Assembly (NCBI GenBank): GCA_024641985.1
Contig: JAHEBZ010000003.1
Coordinates: 310,001-374,000 of the forward strand
Source of the DNA: Rhodoluna sp.
GTDB lineage: Bacteria; Actinomycetota; Actinomycetes; Actinomycetales; Microbacteriaceae
Length of the DNA stretch: 64,000 bases
Direction of reading: 5' to 3'
The notes under the pieces were generated by a model that saw nothing but the letters and a program-made list of their open reading frames with translations, was not told the origin of the DNA and searched no databases. This document shows, one piece after another, positions 5,359 through 36,891 of the stretch (position 1 is its first letter; each line of letters opens with the position of its first letter). A program made the translations under genes and the position numbers.

Positions 5359-8223
5359 GTGTCTATAAGCCAGATCCATCACAACAACAAGCTCATCATC
5401 AAGGGCGCGCGCGTTCACAACTTGCAAAATGTGAATCTCGAAATTCCACGAGACTCGATGGTGGTGTTCACCGGCCTCAGTGGTTCGGGCAAGTCTTCGT
5501 TGGCGTTCGACACCATTTTTGCCGAAGGCCAGCGCCGCTATGTTGAATCTCTTTCGGCCTATGCGCGTCAATTTTTGGGCCAGGTTGATCGCCCAGATGT
5601 TGATTTTATTGAGGGTTTAAGCCCCGCCGTATCGATTGACCAGAAATCGACAAACCGAAACCCGCGTTCGACTGTCGGAACTATTACCGAGATTCACGAC
5701 TACCTTCGCCTGCTTTGGGCTCGTGTTGGAGTGCCGTTCTGCGCCGAGTGTGGCGAAAAAATTGTCAAGCAAACCCCACAGCAAATAGTCGACCAAATCC
5801 TCGAAATGCCTGACGGCACTCGCTTTCAGATTCTGGCTCAAATTGTTGACCAAAAAAAGGGCGAGTTCGTAGACCTCTTTCGCGACCTAAACGCCCAAGG
5901 CTTCGCTCGTGCAGTCGTTGACGGCGAGGTTGTCTCTCTTGCCGAAGCTAAACCACTCAAAAAAACCTTTAAGCACGATATCTCGGTCGTTGTGGATCGA
6001 TTGGTGAACAAGCCCGACATCATTGGCCGTCTCGCCGACTCTGTTGAAACCGCTCTAAAACTTGCTGGCGGACGAATTCTTATAGACCTTGTTGACGAGG
6101 CTGCTGGGCCAACCAAGACCAGAGTTTTTAGCGAAAAAATGTCTTGCCCCAACGAGCATGCGCTTAGCCTCACCGAGATCGAGCCTCGCACATTTTCATT
6201 CAACGCACCCTTTGGTGCTTGCCCTACCTGTTCTGGGCTAGGCACCAAGCAAGCCGTAGATGGAGACCTTGTTATCGGCGACCACGAGGCAAGCATCAAT
6301 GGGGGAGTTATTTTGCCTTGGTCAACCCAGGGTAAGGGCCTGTTTAGTTATTTCACCCGCATGCTTGAAGGTCTGGCAGCTGACATGGAGTTCTCGCTTG
6401 ACACACCGTGGAACGAGCTTGCCGAAGAGGTGCAGCAAGCCGTTCTGCACGGCAATAACTTCGATGTTCAGGTGAAGTGGAAGAACCGATACGGTCGCGA
6501 GTTGCGCTACACAACCGGTTTCGAAGGCGTGCTCAGCTATATCGAGCGCAAATATTTAGAGTCTGAAAACGACTTTGCTCGTGGCCGCTGGAGCGGGTTC
6601 TTGCGCGAGGTTCCGTGCCCGGCCTGCGAAGGCAGACGCCTAAAGCCTGAAGTTCTGGCGGTAAAGGTAGACAACCGCTCGATAGCCGATGTTGCCGCCA
6701 TGAGCCTTGGCGACGCCGTCAAGTTTTTCGAAACCATTCATCTCGACGACCGCGATGTAAAAATTGCGGCCCAGGTGCTTCGCGAAATTCGCGCCCGCCT
6801 CGACTTCTTGCTTGCCGTCGGGCTCGATTATTTGAGCCTCGAACGTGCGGCCGGCAGCCTATCTGGTGGCGAAGCACAACGCATTCGCCTTGCCACACAA
6901 ATTGGCTCGGGGCTAACCGGCGTGCTCTATGTGCTTGATGAGCCGAGTATCGGTTTGCACCAAAGAGACAACCGTCGCCTAATTGACACGCTGATAAAGT
7001 TGCGCGACCTTGGCAACACCCTGATTGTGGTTGAGCACGATGAAGACACCATCAAGGCATCTGACTGGATTGTCGACATCGGCCCAGGTGCTGGAGTTAA
7101 CGGTGGCACCGTGGTGCACAGCGGAACCTATGAAGAACTTCTCACCAATACAACATCGGTGACCGGGGCATTTATGGCTGGCCGCGAGAAAATCGAAACC
7201 CCAAAGAACCGCCGCATTATCGACCCCGCCCGCAAGATCAAAGTGATTGGCGCGCGTGAGAACAATCTCAAAACCGTTGACGTCGAGTTTCCGCTTGGAA
7301 CCCTAACCGCGGTGACCGGCGTGAGTGGCTCTGGCAAGTCATCGTTGGTAAACGACGTGTTGTATGAGGTTCTGGCTAACACGCTAAACGGCGCCAAGGG
7401 CGTTGCTGGCAAGCACACTCGCATCGAGGGGCTCGACCAACTCGACAAGGTTGTGCACGTTGACCAAAACCCAATCGGCAGAACTCCACGCTCGAACCCG
7501 GCAACCTATACGGGTGTTTTTGATCATATTCGCAAGCTTTTTGCCGACACTCAAGAATCAAAGGCCCGCGGTTATCAGCAGGGTCGCTTCTCGTTCAACG
7601 TAAAGGGCGGCCGATGCGAGGCCTGTTCTGGCGATGGCACCCTGCGCATCGAGATGAACTTCTTGCCAGACGTTTATGTTGCCTGCGAGGTTTGCCACGG
7701 TGAGCGCTATAACCGCGAGACTCTTCAGGTTAAATACAAGGGCAAGAACATCGCCGAAGTTCTTGAAATGCCGATCGCCGAGGCTGCAGAGTTCTTTGCA
7801 CCGATAACTTCGATTGCCAGATTCTTGGTAACGCTCGTTGAGGTTGGGCTTGGTTATGTGCGATTGGGCCAAAGTGCCACCACGCTTTCGGGCGGTGAAG
7901 CGCAACGAGTCAAGTTGGCAACCGAGCTGCAAAAGCGCTCGAACGGGCGCAGCATCTATGTTCTCGACGAACCAACCACCGGTTTGCACTTCGAAGATGT
8001 TCGCAAGCTGCTTATGGTGCTCAATGGTCTAGTCGATAAGGGCAACACTGTGCTGGTTATCGAGCACAACCTCGATGTAATTAAGTGCGCCGACTGGATC
8101 GTTGACATGGGCCCAGAGGGTGGCTCTAGAGGCGGCGAGGTGGTTGCTATCGGCACACCAGAGCAGGTTGCCAAGAACTCGAAGAGCTTCACCGGCGGAT
8201 TCTTGAAGGAGATTCTCGACTAG
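5356..8223 (+). CDS. uvrA: UvrABC system protein A
   Basis: 955 residues, full length. It has two ABC ATPase modules: Walker [15 protein letters not shown] near residue 37 and [10 protein letters not shown] near residue 655, each with its own LSGGEAQR signature. Zinc-binding Cys pairs are visible (CPTCSG, CPACEG, and CEAC...CEVC in the second module). UvrA scans DNA for lesions and loads UvrB. The ATG at 5356 has no Shine-Dalgarno; a GTG one codon later fits a leaderless start better. Its stop overlaps the GTG of uvrC by one base, so uvrA and uvrC are surely co-transcribed. Confidence 0.98.
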
Positions 8224-24832: not shown

Positions 24833-25807
24833 GTGGGAATAACCGATGATGTCGGTGATTTAGACTTAACTGAAATGCGAAACGAAACCTCAACTTCTGA
24901 CGCGCCGTCGAGCGCCGGTTTCTTGGGCAAAATTGGCCGCAAGTCACGCGCCTACGTTGCACTAACCAAACCTCGCGTAATCGAGCTTTTGCTAATCACA
25001 ACGGTTCCAACCATGATTTTGGCCCAGCAGGGCATTCCAAACCTTTGGTTGGTTTTGGCAACTCTCGTGGGTGGCGCTCTCAGCGCTGGCTCGGCAAATG
25101 CCTTCAACTGTTACATCGATGCCGACATCGACAAAATCATGGGTCGCACCAAAGGCCGCCCACTGGTTACCGGTGAACTAAGCAAAACCGAGGCGTTTGT
25201 GTTTGCCTGGGTCATTGGCATCGGTTCTGTGCTGTGGCTGGGCCTTTTGGTCAACTGGATGGCCTCGATGCTTTCGTTGATCGCCATCCTTTTTTACGTC
25301 TTCGTGTACACACTCCTGCTAAAGCGTCGCACTCCTCAAAACATCGTTTGGGGTGGAGCAGCCGGAGCCATGCCCGTCACAATCGGTTGGGCGGCAGTGA
25401 CCGGCACCGTTGATCTTGCTGCCTGGGTTCTGTTCCTGGTCATCTTCCTGTGGACTCCACCGCACTACTGGCCACTATCGATGCGATACAAAGAGGATTA
25501 TGCAAATGCAGGCGTGCCAATGCTGCCGGTGGTTCGCGGTTCAAAAACCGTTGCAGTTCAAATAATTCTTTACGCATGGGCGCTTTTCGCATCCACATTG
25601 CTTTTGATACCGGTGGCCAACATGGGGCTGCTTTACATTGTGGTTTCGGTTGCTTCGGGTGGCTGGTTTGTTTTCGAGGCATACAAGCTTTATCGCGAGG
25701 GCATTTCGCAAACAGTAAAAAACCCAATGCGCTTATTCCACTGGGCGAACACCTACTTGACAGTGCTGTTTATCGCTATCGCTATCGACCCACTGCTGCC
25801 GTTCTAA
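24833..25807 (+). CDS. ctaB: Protoheme IX farnesyltransferase (heme O synthase)
   Basis: 324 residues from GTG 24833, or 310 from ATG 24875; the extra residues are acidic and unlike the family, and the ATG has a promoter-like element eight bases upstream. It is a UbiA-type prenyltransferase with eight or nine membrane helices. The prenyl-diphosphate sites are [20 protein letters not shown] and [14 protein letters not shown]. It adds a farnesyl group to heme B to make heme O for cytochrome oxidase. ctaA is close by, completing heme A synthesis. Placement next to tkt is typical of Actinobacteria. Confidence 0.94.
24861..24874 (+). promoter_or_regulatory. Predicted leaderless promoter -10 of ctaB
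   Basis: TAGACT (24861-24866) is followed by eight bases and an ATG at 24875 that is in frame with ctaB. The same TTTAGACT plus eight bases is seen before metH. This argues for the ATG at 24875 over the upstream GTG at 24833. Confidence 0.4.
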
Positions 25808-27178: not shown

Positions 27179-28099
27179 CTAATTGCTAACCGCTTTGCGA
27201 TTTGAACCCCGAATTGCAAGCCACTGCCAGGTAAGCAGGCTGCACAGCACCGCTGCGCCCATCATGTGCAGGCCAACCAGTAGCGGCGGAACACCCAGTC
27301 GAGCTTGGGCTACACCGATGATTGCCTGAACGATACTCACGGCCAATAGCAATGCTGCAATGCGGGTCTGATGACTTGGCACGCCCCGCCTCACCAAGAG
27401 AGCCCATTGCAGCACTATTAGAGCAAGCATCAAGTAAGCCGGGTAGCTGTGAATGTGTTGCAAAACATCGAGGTCTAAGCCGTTTCGAACGCTCTTGGCA
27501 TCGCCAGAGTGCGGGCCAGCACCGGTAACCAACACACCCACCACAACGGTGATCGCACCAACGAGCGCGATTGGGCTCGCGGTTCTCCAAATTGCGGGGC
27601 TAACTGCAACGTGAACCGGCGGCAGCGCACGAAACAGCAAAACACTGGCGACAGCAATCATGTAGCCGCTAAGCACAAAGTGAGCACCTACGAACCATGG
27701 GTTCAATTGTGTAAGCACGGTGAATCCGCCAAGTATTGCCTGTGCCGGAATGCCAAGCCCGAGAATAAGAGCCGGCGCGAACAAACCCTGACGAAGTTCG
27801 CGACCCAAGCCCAGGATGCTGAGAAATGTTAAGACTGCGATGAGCGCGAGAACAAAGGTCAACAGGCGATTAGCGAACTCAATTATGCCGTGCAGGCCCA
27901 TCTCGGGAACTGTGACCAATGATGAATCGGTGCACTTAGGCCAGGTTGGGCAACCGAGGCCCGAGCCAGTGAGTCGAACCACGCCGCCGGTAACCACAAT
28001 GAGAACTTGACTTACCAGTGAAACCCAAACATACAGAGGGATTCGAGCGCTAGAAAATAGTGCGAACCGGGGCAGTGTGGCTATGAGCTTCGATATCAT
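27179..28099 (-). CDS. ctaA: Heme A synthase (COX15/CtaA family)
   Basis: 306 residues with about eight membrane helices. The family block VVRLTGSGLGCPTWPKCT near residue 40 contains the paired Cys found in this class. His residues that bind heme are seen in HGIIEFANR, GAHFVLSGY, LDVLQHIHSYPAY and LVGLHMMGAA. It oxidises heme O to heme A for the aa3 oxidase. It precedes phrB by two bases and is divergent from sufB. Confidence 0.94.
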   Translation of the reverse strand: MISKLIATLPRFALFSSARIPLYVWVSLVSQVLIVVTGGVVRLTGSGLGCPTWPKCTDSSLVTVPEMGLHGIIEFANRLLTFVLALIAVLTFLSILGLGRELRQGLFAPALILGLGIPAQAILGGFTVLTQLNPWFVGAHFVLSGYMIAVASVLLFRALPPVHVAVSPAIWRTASPIALVGAITVVVGVLVTGAGPHSGDAKSVRNGLDLDVLQHIHSYPAYLMLALIVLQWALLVRRGVPSHQTRIAALLLAVSIVQAIIGVAQARLGVPPLLVGLHMMGAAVLCSLLTWQWLAIRGSNRKAVSN

Positions 28100-33016: not shown

Positions 33017-33123
33017 GTGAACTCCAATGGGGATAAAAAAGTCTTGTCTCGATTGTAGACTGGGACTTTTGTGGGCAACCCACTATTAGTGACTAAAATC
33101 CACACCAATTTTTGGAGTATTGC
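33017..33123. promoter_or_regulatory. bioY/ABC-F divergent region with three inverted repeats
   Basis: The 107-base spacer holds three stacked symmetric elements. The first is an interrupted hairpin, AAAAGTC (33037-33043) with GACTTTT (33064-33070) plus an inner GTCT/AGAC. The second is GTGGG-CAA-CCCAC (33071-33083). The third is TTAGT-G-ACTAA (33086-33096). These could be operators for bioY (for example a BirA- or BioQ-type repressor) or part of the ABC-F promoter. The assignment is inference. Confidence 0.4.
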
Positions 33124-34722
33124 ATGCTTGCCGTTAGCGACCTAGAGATTCGCATTGGTGCACGCACATTGATGTCGGGCGTGAACTTCAAAGTCGACAA
33201 GGGCGACAAAGTTGGTCTTGTTGGCCGAAATGGTGCCGGCAAAACCACATTGACCAAAATTTTGGCAGGCGACGGCCAGCCAGATCAGGGCAAGGTTTCA
33301 CGCGGGGGAGAGATCGGCTATCTGCCGCAAGACCCAAGAACCGGCGACCCAGAAGAACTTGCCAGAACTCGAATTTTGAATGCACGCGGTCTTGGTGACC
33401 TGTTGGCCGAGATGAACAAAGCAACCGAAGACATGGGCAGCATTGACGAAAAGGTTTACGACGCAGCCATGGAGCGTTATTCAAAACTAGAAGAGCGCTT
33501 TCAGGCCGGTGGTGGTTATTCGGCTGAGGCCGAAGCCGCTGCTATCGCAAGCAATTTGGGCATCAAAGAACACATTCTCGAGCAACAACTAAAAACACTT
33601 TCTGGCGGTCAACGTCGTCGCATCGAGCTGGCTCGAATTCTATTCTCGAACGCCGAAACCATGATTCTCGACGAACCGACAAACCACCTCGATGCCGATT
33701 CCGTAATGTGGCTACGTGATTTCTTGAAGAGTTATCAGGGCGGTCTAATCGTGATTAGTCACGATGTCGACCTCGTAGAAGAAACCGTAAACCGCGTTTT
33801 TTATCTCGATGCCATGCGTTGCGTGATCGACATCTACAACATGGGTTGGCGCGCTTACCAAAAGGCCCGCGAAACCGACGAAGAGCGCCGCAAGCGCGAG
33901 CGTTCGATTGCTGAAAAGAAGGCCAGCACGCTGCAACTTCAGGCAGCCAAATTCGGCGCCAAGGCTAGCAAAGCATCGGCCGCCCACCAAATGGTTCGCC
34001 GAGCCGAAAAGCTGCTAAGTGGCCTCGATGATGTGCGCGAAGTCGACCGGGTAGCAAAAATCAAGTTTCCCGACCCAGCTCCGTGCGGTCGCACACCTCT
34101 CATGGCCAACAATCTCTCCAAGAGTTATGGCTCACTCGAAATTTTCACTGCCGTCGACCTTGCCATCGACAAGGGCTCGAAGGTTGTCATCATCGGTCTC
34201 AACGGTGCCGGCAAAACCACAATGTTGCGCATGTTGGCTGGGCTCGACACACCCGATACCGGCGAAATTGTGCCGGGTCACGGGCTAAAAATTGGTTATT
34301 TCGCTCAAGAGCACGAAACTCTCGATGTTTCTAAGACTGTGCTCGAAAACATGCAGCGAGCCGCTCCACAGCTTGCCGATACCGATGCACGTAAGGTTCT
34401 CGGTTCGTTCCTCTTCACCGGAGACGACGTAAACAAGCCCGCAGGTGTTTTGAGTGGTGGCGAAAAAACTCGTTTGGCACTCGCTTCACTTGTGGTTTCA
34501 TCGGCTAACGTGTTGTTGCTCGATGAGCCAACCAACAACCTCGACCCAGCCAGCCGCGAAGAGATTTTGCGAGCCCTGAGCACCTTTACCGGTGCCGTGG
34601 TGCTTGTTTCACACGATGTTGGTGCCGTTGTGGCCTTGAACCCAGAGCGAGTTCTGATTTTGCCAGACGGCGATGAAGACCACTGGAACGATGGCTATGC
34701 CGAGCTCATTTCACTGAGCTAA
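33124..34722 (+). CDS. ABC-F family ATPase (translation factor type)
   Basis: 532 residues from the ATG at 33124, seven bases after TTTGGAG; an upstream in-frame TTG at 33112 overlaps that ribosome site and is less likely. It has two ABC modules: GRNGAGKTTLTKIL with LSGGQRRRIELARI, and GLNGAGKTTMLRML with LSGGEKTRLALASL. A charged linker between them (about 230-310) is rich in Arg, Lys and Ala. There are no membrane segments. ABC-F proteins act on ribosomes; the exact subfamily cannot be told. It resembles the housekeeping actinobacterial type, so antibiotic resistance should not be assumed. Confidence 0.92.
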   Translation: MLAVSDLEIRIGARTLMSGVNFKVDKGDKVGLVGRNGAGKTTLTKILAGDGQPDQGKVSRGGEIGYLPQDPRTGDPEELARTRILNARGLGDLLAEMNKATEDMGSIDEKVYDAAMERYSKLEERFQAGGGYSAEAEAAAIASNLGIKEHILEQQLKTLSGGQRRRIELARILFSNAETMILDEPTNHLDADSVMWLRDFLKSYQGGLIVISHDVDLVEETVNRVFYLDAMRCVIDIYNMGWRAYQKARETDEERRKRERSIAEKKASTLQLQAAKFGAKASKASAAHQMVRRAEKLLSGLDDVREVDRVAKIKFPDPAPCGRTPLMANNLSKSYGSLEIFTAVDLAIDKGSKVVIIGLNGAGKTTMLRMLAGLDTPDTGEIVPGHGLKIGYFAQEHETLDVSKTVLENMQRAAPQLADTDARKVLGSFLFTGDDVNKPAGVLSGGEKTRLALASLVVSSANVLLLDEPTNNLDPASREEILRALSTFTGAVVLVSHDVGAVVALNPERVLILPDGDEDHWNDGYAELISLS

Positions 34723-34737
34723 CCTCAACACCAATTT

Positions 34738-35556
34738 CTACAAGGCATCTTCGGCGTTTTTATCGTCATCGCCAACTTTTTTTCTGACTTTAGGTTGAAA
34801 ACTAGGGTCTTGAGCCATGCGCCTAATGCGCAATTCTTGCCGCACACCCCACCACAGAGCACCGAACGCCATTAGTGCAAAAAGAATCCATTGCATGGCA
34901 TAACTCAGATGATTGCCCTCGTTTAGATCGGGGCGCCCGAGAATCTTGGGCAAGGTTTTATCAGATTGGTAGCTTTCGCCGAGTCGAACGTAAACAGAGT
35001 TAATTGAAGGGCCTGAAGAGTCGAGGGCCTCGAAAAGCTTTGCCGAGTTTATGCTGGCCAATTGCCCAGCGGGAGCCGATTTACCGGTTTCGGGTTCGGT
35101 TACTCGCAATCGACCCCAAATCTTGAAATTACCCGAGCTTGGCAGCGGAATCAGATCTGGCTCGTCTTGGGCATTACCTGATGGCAGCCAGCCCGTTTCA
35201 ACGGCCACCAATGTGCCATCTATGGTTTTGAATGGAATCAACTGCAAAAATCCGGCGGTTCCGTTGTAAGGGCGGTTACGCACTAAAACTGCCTCTGCTG
35301 GCAGGAACGAACCTTCTAGCTCTACCGGCCGCCACTCATTTTGGGCGTCAAAAGGCTGGGTTAGGTCTTCGATCGAAACTAGTGGTTGATCAAAGTTGTG
35401 TTGAACCAGCTCAATGCGAGCAACGGCTTCTGCCCGCCTCGAAAATTGCCACTGGGACAAAAACACGCAGGCCACTGCAAAAACGCTCGCCAGAGCCAAC
35501 CAGGCCAGCCAACGCTTCCAAGATTCCTTCAACCAGCTGGCCGAAATTGAGCTCAT
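34738..35556 (-). CDS. SURF1-family cytochrome oxidase biogenesis protein
   Basis: 272 residues with one membrane helix near the N-terminus (about 17-34) and one near the C-terminus (about 222-240), with an extracytoplasmic domain between. This is the SURF1/Shy1 layout. The segments WQFSRRAEAVARI, VLVRNRPYNGTAGF, VETGWLPSG and LSYAMQWILFALMAFG fit the family. SURF1 helps insert heme A into cytochrome oxidase subunit I, fitting the ctaA/ctaB genes nearby. AAAGGTGAT precedes the ATG, which overlaps the previous stop by one base. Confidence 0.92.
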   Translation of the reverse strand: MSSISASWLKESWKRWLAWLALASVFAVACVFLSQWQFSRRAEAVARIELVQHNFDQPLVSIEDLTQPFDAQNEWRPVELEGSFLPAEAVLVRNRPYNGTAGFLQLIPFKTIDGTLVAVETGWLPSGNAQDEPDLIPLPSSGNFKIWGRLRVTEPETGKSAPAGQLASINSAKLFEALDSSGPSINSVYVRLGESYQSDKTLPKILGRPDLNEGNHLSYAMQWILFALMAFGALWWGVRQELRIRRMAQDPSFQPKVRKKVGDDDKNAEDAL

Positions 35557-35756
35557 CAGATCACCTTTGCTTCGAGGAAGAATCCTCGAACTCGTAAGTA
35601 GTCAATCAGAAAGTCTTGATGCTCGAGGCACGCCAACCAAGTTTTAGTTCTGCCATCGAAATGTATTTTGAGGTTGCACCAGATGATTTGCTGCGACGCA
35701 ACAGACACGCAGCCCGCCCTAGAGCATTTTTGATAAGCGGGGGATTGCTGAAGCAT
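35556..35756 (-). CDS. Small Cys/His protein between DUF3099 and SURF1
   Basis: 66 residues that exactly fill the space between the two neighbours. Its ATG uses the last base of the DUF3099 stop and its TGA overlaps the SURF1 ATG. It has two potential metal-binding pairs, KCSRAGC near residues 11-16 and LACLEH near residues 42-45, with a hydrophobic helix after them. I recall similar short proteins next to SURF1 in other Microbacteriaceae; their function is unknown to me. The tight spacing and Cys/His pattern argue that it is a real gene, perhaps linked to oxidase assembly (inference). Confidence 0.75.
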   Translation of the reverse strand: MLQQSPAYQKCSRAGCVSVASQQIIWCNLKIHFDGRTKTWLACLEHQDFLIDYLRVRGFFLEAKVI

Positions 35757-36034
35757 TACTTGTTATCGGACGTGTTTGTTTTGGCAAAAACATCGGCGGA
35801 AATTGTGATTGTTGGCGCCACCACTTTGGGAAGTGAATTTTTTGCTTGCCCGTTGCCTTGAGCATTGGCGAGCACAACCGCAAAATATGGCAGCAAGATT
35901 GCTCCGGCAAAAAACACCCACATCAGCCAGCCTTGAACCACCATTGCAAGAATCAGACAGACCACACGAATCGACATAGCCAGGGTGTATCGCAGCATTC
36001 GCTGCTTGCGCTCCTGCTCAGGAGACACGCCCAC
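35756..36034 (-). CDS. DUF3099-type small membrane protein
   Basis: 92 residues from a GTG at 36034. It has two membrane helices (about 16-34 and 37-55) preceded by the basic stretch ERKQRMLRYTLAM, which fits the actinobacterial DUF3099 family. The GTG lacks a ribosome site. A perfect GGAGGT (36066-36071) lies four bases before an in-frame ATT at 36061, which would add nine residues (SKPQSATA after the start) resembling the family N-terminus. An in-frame stop lies just above. Function unknown; it leads the unit with the Cys/His protein and SURF1. Confidence 0.8.
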   Translation of the reverse strand: MGVSPEQERKQRMLRYTLAMSIRVVCLILAMVVQGWLMWVFFAGAILLPYFAVVLANAQGNGQAKNSLPKVVAPTITISADVFAKTNTSDNK

Positions 36035-36180
36035 CGCTGTGGCACTCTGGGGTTTGCTAATCTCTACCTCCGGCTAAGAATTGTGGGCAGCCAACTTATT
36101 CAAGAATAAGTCAAAGGCTAGACTTCACTTGTCCCAAGCATCGACGAACTAGTTGTATTCCCCGGAAAGAGAGCTTCTAA

Positions 36181-36891
36181 ATGACCCAGGCAAGAACCGT
36201 TCTAGTTACCGGCGGAAACCGCGGAATCGGCCGTTCTATTGCAGAAGAGTTTGTGCGCCTTGGCCACCGAGTGGCAGTAACTGTGCGAAGCGGCGAGGGG
36301 CCAGCAGGAACACTAAGTGTGATTGCAGATGTAACCGACCCAGCCTCGCTAGACAAGGCTTTCGCTGAAGTCGAAGAAAAGCTGGGCGCAATCGAAATTT
36401 TGGTTGCCAATGCCGGTATCACGCGCGACACCCTGTTGATGCGCATGACCGATGAAGAGTTTGAGGATGTAGTTAACACCAACCTGAACGGTGTTTTTAG
36501 AGTTTTGCGTCGAGCAACCAAGGGCATGATCAAAGCGCGTTTTGGTCGAGTAATTTTGATCGGTAGCGTGGTTGGGCTGCTTGGCTCGGCAGGTCAGGTA
36601 AATTATTCGGCAACCAAGTCAGCACTGGTGGGAATGGCTCGCTCGGTAACTCGCGAGCTTGGAGCGCGCGGAATCACGGCAAACGTTGTGGCCCCGGGCT
36701 TCATCGACACAGACATGACCGCGGCTCTGCCAGAGGCACAGCAAGACGACTATAAAAAGAAAATTCCGGCCGGTCGTTTTGCACAGCCAGAAGAAGTTGC
36801 CAAGGTAGTTGCCTGGTTGGCAAGCGAAGATGCAGCATACATTTCTGGTGCCGTAATTCCGGTTGACGGCGGCCTAGGAATGGGTCACTAA
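36181..36891 (+). CDS. fabG: 3-oxoacyl-ACP reductase (short-chain dehydrogenase)
   Basis: 236 residues. The NAD(P) loop is TGGNRGIGRS near residue 10, NAG lies near residue 78, the catalytic Ser is in ILIGSVVG, and Tyr and Lys are in YSATKSAL (Y-x3-K). It resembles MabA/FabG, which reduces 3-oxoacyl-ACP in fatty acid elongation. Other SDR activities are possible. A TAGACT at 36119-36124 could be the -10 of a promoter with a leader of about 50 bases; AGAGAG serves as a ribosome site. Its stop interlocks with the convergent serB stop. Confidence 0.9.
   Translation: MTQARTVLVTGGNRGIGRSIAEEFVRLGHRVAVTVRSGEGPAGTLSVIADVTDPASLDKAFAEVEEKLGAIEILVANAGITRDTLLMRMTDEEFEDVVNTNLNGVFRVLRRATKGMIKARFGRVILIGSVVGLLGSAGQVNYSATKSALVGMARSVTRELGARGITANVVAPGFIDTDMTAALPEAQQDDYKKKIPAGRFAQPEEVAKVVAWLASEDAAYISGAVIPVDGGLGMGH

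Follow-up and report, generated by a model that had tools for sequence, protein, structure and literature searches.

Does a 66-residue protein encoded directly upstream of SURF1 take part in the assembly of cytochrome oxidase? The question is raised by three minus-strand genes in the window, which is the whole stretch of 64,000 nucleotides analysed here and comes from a genome of 1.38 Mb (G000), 91% complete. The first-pass annotation had described these genes as overlapping by one base each, had pointed to ctaA and ctaB in the same window, and had proposed that both uncharacterised proteins of the unit may be oxidase assembly factors. As listed below, the reading frames and their one-base overlaps were recovered exactly as described, and both cta genes do lie in the window.

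35756..36061, minus strand: DUF3099 gene, 101 aa (PF11298, E 4.5e-22; hydropathy)
35556..35756, minus strand: Cys-His gene, 66 aa, with C11-x4-C16 and C43-x2-H46 (alignment; no Pfam or NCBIfam match)
34738..35556, minus strand: SURF1 gene, 272 aa (PF02104, E 8.1e-31; NF050123, 210.1 bits)
35756..35756, minus strand: one-base overlap TAATG, stop of DUF3099 and start of Cys-His (sequence)
35556..35556, minus strand: one-base overlap TGATG, stop of Cys-His and start of SURF1 (sequence)
36181..36891, plus strand: fabG-type short-chain dehydrogenase gene, divergent (PF13561, E 4.4e-56; synteny)
33112..34722, plus strand: ABC-F type ATPase gene, convergent (PF00005, two stretches; synteny)
24833-25807, plus strand: ctaB, UbiA family (in the window)
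27179-28099, minus strand: ctaA, COX15-CtaA (in the window)

In Micrococcales loci, as synteny shows, the unit usually has a divergent fabG upstream and a convergent ABC-F gene after SURF1. A full COX1 match was located at G000:C6:382891-384228, about 9 kb past the window end.

The outer members of the cluster

By its sequence, in which nothing odd was noticed, the gene at the downstream end clearly belongs to the SURF1 family. It exceeds both curated cut-offs (PF02104, 108.4 bits against 23.4; NF050123, 210.1 against 190), and hydropathy windows above 1.5 begin at residues 14-20 and 220, marking two predicted membrane segments that flank the domain. In PMC9145763 and PMC7775120, Surf1 is described as needed for the bc-aa3 supercomplex in C. 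glutamicum. In our C. glutamicum control genome, the family profiles matched both DUF3099 and SURF1. Among the matches listed, each SURF1-positive genome of the order set has two for PF02104, of which the cluster can account for one at most; in the class set many genomes have two such matches and some have one.

The upstream gene is likewise a clear member of its family (PF11298, 78.4 bits against a cut-off of 23.2), with a hydrophobic stretch at about residues 22-68. It differs from DUF3099 genes in its apparent initiation at ATT. Position 36061, given as the end coordinate in the first-pass annotation, is an ATT codon with GGAGG ahead of it. At the aligned position, 17 of the 18 other loci of the genus have ATG, GTG or TTG, and the first such codon in the frame of the window is a GTG at 36034. 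The ATT may be a rare start codon, the gene may have a shortened start at GTG 36034, or the codon may be an assembly variant. DUF3099 was named in no paper found by a literature search that covered few subscription papers.

A conserved family of small proteins

The middle gene is more than a chance reading frame because 28 of the 40 genomes in the relatives set encode it (the genome of the window counted), among them 18 of the 24 other genomes of its genus. All 28 matching loci have DUF3099 before the gene and SURF1 after it, on its own strand, with moaA between Cys-His and SURF1 at one of them (L025). When the window and the other 27 loci were aligned (alignment A1), C11, C16, C43 and H46 were invariant in 28/28 rows; they were also invariant in 56/56 rows of a wider alignment (A3), which adds to the window 55 of the 69 non-identical sequences that 80 loci yielded. 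The Cys and His residues singled out earlier are thus conserved in orthologues, and this conservation rules out a chance ORF. Invariant in A1 are also S12, W26, N28, H32, K38, W40, L54 and R57, and the eleven of these twelve positions that were recounted in A3 did not vary in its 56 rows either. Position 29 of the window copy is Leu, against Pro in the remaining 27 rows of A1, and this copy carries an extra Cys27.

At least 584 relatives of the protein were confirmed in a scan of species genomes, and matches were also found in Streptomyces. Within the phylum set the protein occurs in 12/198 genomes, all from the class of the window (12/17 in the class against 0/181 in other classes, 166 rows having been assigned to other classes by the kinship order of the rows). 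The class set gave matches in 51/148 genomes, a count that includes one doubtful genome, G114, with a partial match at E 7e-4. In the order set 120/178 genomes were matched, with one copy each. No relatives were found in phage records, and a scan of viral contigs returned 42 pattern stretches, of which 0 were confirmed.

Neither Pfam nor NCBIfam contained a match to the 66-aa protein, and a PDB sequence search returned one row at E 2.6. Seven relatives searched at E<=10 likewise gave no Pfam or NCBIfam row over the cut-off. Acetone carboxylase, which we take to be a label used for such small proteins, was rejected: no such model was matched in either database by 8 family members (1 searched at E<=1, 7 at E<=10). 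The tag SCO1820 presumably belongs to the family. A literature search that covered few subscription papers found no report of the protein, and SCO1818-SCO1821 were not found in PMC4255298. Cys-His is a conserved actinobacterial family of predicted zinc-binding proteins that has neither a name nor a Pfam or NCBIfam model.

Predicted fold and metal site

The invariance of C11, C16, C43 and H46 makes a metal site likely. AlphaFold2, run on the 56-row alignment, gave a model with a mean pLDDT of 88.6 and a pTM of 0.74, in which strands are predicted at residues 22-26 and 38-42, a helix at 47-56 and a further strand at 60-65. In this model C11 and C16 stand ahead of the hairpin, and C43-x2-H46 just ahead of the helix. 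A treble clef consists of a knuckle, a beta-hairpin and a helix, with the second ligand pair at the helix start. As in treble-clef zinc fingers, the modelled protein has two ligands on an N-terminal knuckle, then a beta-hairpin, and C-x2-H beside the helix start; unlike them, its sequence has no relative in Pfam or NCBIfam and no credible one in PDB. The conserved ligand-type residues, four Cys or His in two pairs, are those that a treble clef requires (28/28 and 56/56 rows). The domain, of treble-clef-like topology, is modelled with good confidence, and the arrangement of three Cys and one His, on the knuckle and next to the start of the helix, resembles a structural zinc site.

Structure prediction of the metal site, one of the checks proposed earlier, thus gave a treble-clef-like model, but the fold searches returned weak rows (Foldseek best E 0.75, VIA-align best Z 5.0), with no recognisable treble clef among the rows shown, a result that does not speak against one. 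These rows, which included a phycobilisome linker, Lsr2 and procarboxypeptidase domains, were set aside. Two PDB hits to the Cys-His profile were judged to be chance, namely 9d01_A, whose short helix was matched twice (E 0.00044, each i-Evalue 5.6), and a transporter fragment at E 1.4.

The first-pass annotation had also seen in the middle protein the look of a small chaperone, and on this point the evidence goes the other way. Small copper chaperones of oxidase assembly include Sco and PCuAC, both of which are listed in PMC9145763. Cys-His resembles them in being small, in containing Cys and His, and in lying near cta genes; it differs in having no signal or membrane stretch, in its structural-looking set of three Cys and one His, and in its presence in two genomes without aa3. 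Its best 19-residue hydropathy window reaches 0.78, and no membrane or signal-like stretch was detected by hydropathy. A periplasmic copper chaperone was rejected on the ground that there is no export signal. Cys-His is therefore probably a cytosolic protein that holds a zinc ion in a structural role.

Gene order in other lineages

A neighbourhood survey with SURF1 and the cta genes had been suggested as a check. The 80 named loci surveyed are the best 80 of at least 584 confirmed; they were found with patterns derived from Micrococcales and over-sample near relatives. Grouped from record titles, they comprise 43 Micrococcales, 29 Streptomycetaceae and 8 other loci. L084, a record titled Sphaerisporangium cinnabarinum, was placed with Micrococcales; its locus resembles that of Cellulosimicrobium, and the record is perhaps mislabelled or contaminated.

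The survey upheld the association with SURF1 in Micrococcales only. SURF1 lies within 1.5 kb downstream of Cys-His, and is its direct neighbour, in 43/43 Micrococcales loci; within the same distance it was found in 0/29 Streptomycetaceae and 1/8 other loci, the latter with moaA between, and it is the direct neighbour in 0/37 of these loci. In 15/29 Streptomycetaceae SURF1 is 1.5-10 kb from Cys-His, and in 14/29 it falls outside the stretch examined. The contact with DUF3099 is wider, this gene lying within 1 kb upstream in 43/43 Micrococcales, 29/29 Streptomycetaceae and 1/8 other loci. As for the gene that follows, moaA is the convergent next gene in 27/29 Streptomycetaceae loci, mobA-moaA comes next in four other loci (L077, L130, L133 and L134), and moaA separates Cys-His from SURF1 at L124 and L025. 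Salinispora and Micromonospora loci have MoxR and PH-domain genes among their neighbours. At L077:10212-11039 a MobA-like NTP transferase with a C-terminal DUF6457 domain is encoded. From these gene orders, the contact between Cys-His and SURF1 looks derived, and may have come about by the closing-up of an order DUF3099, Cys-His, moaA, SURF1.

Co-occurrence with the oxidase and its exceptions

The order set consists of 178 genomes, for which 95% completeness was requested, the genome of the window being in the set at 91%. COX1 was matched in 148 of them, SURF1 in 144, DUF3099 in 121 and Cys-His in 120. Cys-His and DUF3099 occur together in 118 genomes, Cys-His alone in 2, DUF3099 alone in 3 and neither in 55. 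The corresponding numbers are 119, 1, 29 and 29 for Cys-His against COX1, and 118, 2, 26 and 32 for Cys-His against SURF1. The Jaccard values with Cys-His are 0.959 for DUF3099, 0.80 for COX1 and 0.81 for SURF1, shared ancestry included. Across the order, Cys-His and the oxidase thus tend to be found together (Fisher p 4e-16, uncorrected for ancestry), and 29 of the 30 COX1-negative genomes have no Cys-His. These associations are strong, yet shared ancestry and adjacency enter into them. The exceptions are more telling.

Exceptions of one kind are genomes in which the oxidase goes without Cys-His. COX1 is present in all of the 26 SURF1-bearing order genomes (of 144) that have no Cys-His. COX1 and SURF1 occur with neither DUF3099 nor Cys-His in 23 of the 178 genomes, 12 of which are from family f10. 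Every DUF3099 bearer in the order set has COX1 and SURF1 (121/121). The relation is less strict in the class set, where DUF3099 was found in 139/148 genomes; at least 15 of the 139 have no SURF1 match and 5 no COX1 match (G095, G097, G112, G134 and G167), the five being drafts of at least 260 contigs, of which G112 is 99% complete though fragmented. A link of DUF3099 to the oxidase is plausible from these distributions. In the same set, three genomes have Cys-His without a SURF1 match (G049, G107 and G123), and two without a COX1 match (G107, 91% complete, and G134, 77% complete, both fragmented).

A true oxidase is absent in 2 of the 120 Cys-His bearers of the order set, G518 and G397. G518 is 99% complete and keeps Cys-His without COX1, SURF1 or DUF3099, and no COX1 match appeared even at E<=10; its Cys-His gene sits between two histidine-phosphatase genes. 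G397, which is 100% complete, has no SURF1 even at E<=1 and no DUF3099. Its sole PF00115 protein, of 830 aa, matched at 3.9e-50, compared with about 1e-159 for CtaD of two genus mates, and its PF00115 domain had no NCBIfam match, so that no CtaD model was matched. Judged from these scores, it is probably a quinol-type enzyme resembling nitric oxide reductase. A second PF00115 match resembling it was noticed in the genus mate G521. The Cys-His gene of G397 is intact: the divergent fabG adjoins it, a YdjM gene follows and then ABC-F 1.6 kb on, while both partners are gone. G462 and G521, genus mates of G397, have the order fabG, DUF3099, Cys-His, SURF1, and by this synteny the copy in G397 is marked as standing at the ancestral site.

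Genomes that have lost Cys-His and kept its neighbours were found as well. Three from the genus of the window, G011 (73% complete), G016 (94%) and G021 (79%), have DUF3099 followed directly by SURF1, with no room for Cys-His and no copy elsewhere in the genome. DUF3099 and SURF1 also adjoin without Cys-His in G379, G491 and G503, and none of the six junctions contains a Cys-His reading frame. Cys-His is therefore separable from its neighbours in both directions, and the expectation that it would be limited to genomes with cytochrome oxidase did not hold, since G518 and G397 keep it without aa3, SURF1 and DUF3099. As these are 2 of 120 bearers, the retention could be recent or idle.

Copies on plasmids

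Cys-His matches were obtained on 4 plasmids, all among the 40 plasmids with a SURF1 match; the other 36 of the 40 had no match to the one Streptomyces query used at E<=1e-3. The Kocuria rosea plasmid NZ_CP127859.1 (L158) carries Cys-His at 5932-6210 and SURF1 at 6207-7229, which overlap by 4 bases, and also holds CopC, CcdA, ResB, CcsB, ctaD and two genes annotated 'cytochrome c oxidase assembly protein'; no DUF3099 match was found in the 12 kb around the pair. On a second K. rosea plasmid, Cys-His is followed by a 42-aa stub resembling the SURF1 start, and an intact SURF1 lies elsewhere. The four ligand-type residues are intact in both K. rosea copies, but R57 is replaced by Gln. On the plasmid of Citricoccus SGAir0253 the Cys-His copy beside SURF1 has decayed and lost W40 and C43, and a second Citricoccus plasmid has SURF1 without a Cys-His copy in the 15 kb read. 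A Microbacterium plasmid has Cys-His in a chromosome-like order. Three of the four plasmid genes are annotated 'hypothetical protein', and the decayed one was missed. These findings therefore indicate that Cys-His is able to travel with an oxidase set, yet able to decay while SURF1 stays.

Plasmids of Micrococcaceae (L158, L162, L160, L163 and L164-L167) were seen to carry islands of cytochrome-assembly and metal genes, which contain varying sets of SURF1, oxidase assembly proteins, CcdA, ResB, CcsB, CopC, CopD and signal peptidase II. Among the K. rosea plasmids, ctaD is additionally present on one and cytochrome bd genes on another.

Discussion

We favour, with about an even chance of being right, the reading that Cys-His is a small cytosolic zinc-type domain family of the class of the window, which would act on some partner and would have a function that needs neither aa3 oxidase nor SURF1 nor DUF3099. 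C11, C16, C43 and H46 would together bind a single metal ion, most likely zinc, which would clamp knuckle, beta-hairpin and helix in a treble-clef-like arrangement, and this clamp would present a conserved face of W26, N28, H32, K38, W40 and R57 that may bind some protein or nucleic acid. In the window, the co-transcription of the gene with DUF3099 and SURF1 and its translational coupling to them would be a consequence of a closing-up of the cluster in Micrococcales. Against this reading count the travel of Cys-His with SURF1 on plasmids, on one of them with ctaD, and its co-occurrence with the oxidase in the order, where it is largely missing from oxidase-free genomes; in addition, a true oxidase is lacking in only 2 of 120 bearers, and the fold searches listed no treble clef.

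The plasmid travel and the co-occurrence favour an accessory factor of aa3 biogenesis, a cytosolic metalloprotein which would aid SURF1 or CtaA in the supply or insertion of heme a in some actinobacteria and would be useful but not essential. The need for Surf1 in forming bc-aa3 in C. glutamicum, reported in PMC9145763, speaks for this, together with the place of Cys-His within 1.5 kb upstream of SURF1 in all 43 named Micrococcales loci, its strong association with COX1 and SURF1 across the order set, the SURF1 match on all four Cys-His plasmids, and the overlapping pair of L158, which shares its plasmid with ctaD and assembly genes. We nevertheless consider it rather doubtful, as G397 and G518 keep Cys-His without oxidase, SURF1 or DUF3099, 26 of 144 SURF1-bearing order genomes do without it although all have COX1, 36 of 40 SURF1 plasmids show no match to the single query and the SGAir0253 copy has decayed, and SURF1 is within 1.5 kb in none of the 29 Streptomycetaceae loci. 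The retention of Cys-His in genomes that have neither oxidase nor SURF1 makes a dedicated role in oxidase assembly improbable. The earlier proposal for both unknown proteins is hence partly supported at best: G518 and G397 weaken it for Cys-His by the criterion that the first-pass annotation itself had set, and these natural experiments leave DUF3099 as the better candidate for an oxidase-linked protein.

DUF3099 might instead be the partner itself, a membrane protein that anchors Cys-His in a joint process usually, though not always, tied to respiration. Few exceptions disturb their joint occurrence (118 order genomes with both against 2 and 3, Jaccard 0.959), and the link is wider than that with SURF1, DUF3099 lying within 1 kb upstream in all the Micrococcales and Streptomycetaceae loci. 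This partnership seems unlikely to us, however, since G397 and G518 have Cys-His without DUF3099, only 51 genomes of the class set match Cys-His where 139 of 148 have DUF3099, and DUF3099 is not within 1 kb in 7 of the 8 other named loci; moreover, adjacent genes can readily disappear together, and no correction for shared ancestry enters the counts. We regard it as very improbable that this small protein is a conserved housekeeping passenger whose position in the cluster would be meaningless and whose overlaps would reflect streamlining in a 1.4 Mb genome. The neighbourhoods do vary by lineage (moaA, mobA, dodecin, MoxR and PH-domain genes), but that with DUF3099 is kept across two large lineages.

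A more speculative idea, which we hold to be quite improbable, is that Cys-His is a class-specific zinc-type switch, a cytosolic partner of DUF3099 that would sense zinc or redox state and tune the supply of respiratory or heme proteins. Such a switch would explain why Cys-His usually tracks the oxidase by genome and rides an oxidase plasmid, yet stays in an aa3-free genome with another enzyme of the heme-copper superfamily.

This small conserved protein, for which neither Pfam nor NCBIfam has a model, is matched in 120 of the 178 genomes of the order and in Streptomyces. Genomes that have lost Cys-His or its neighbours serve as natural experiments, which part it from SURF1 and render its role testable.
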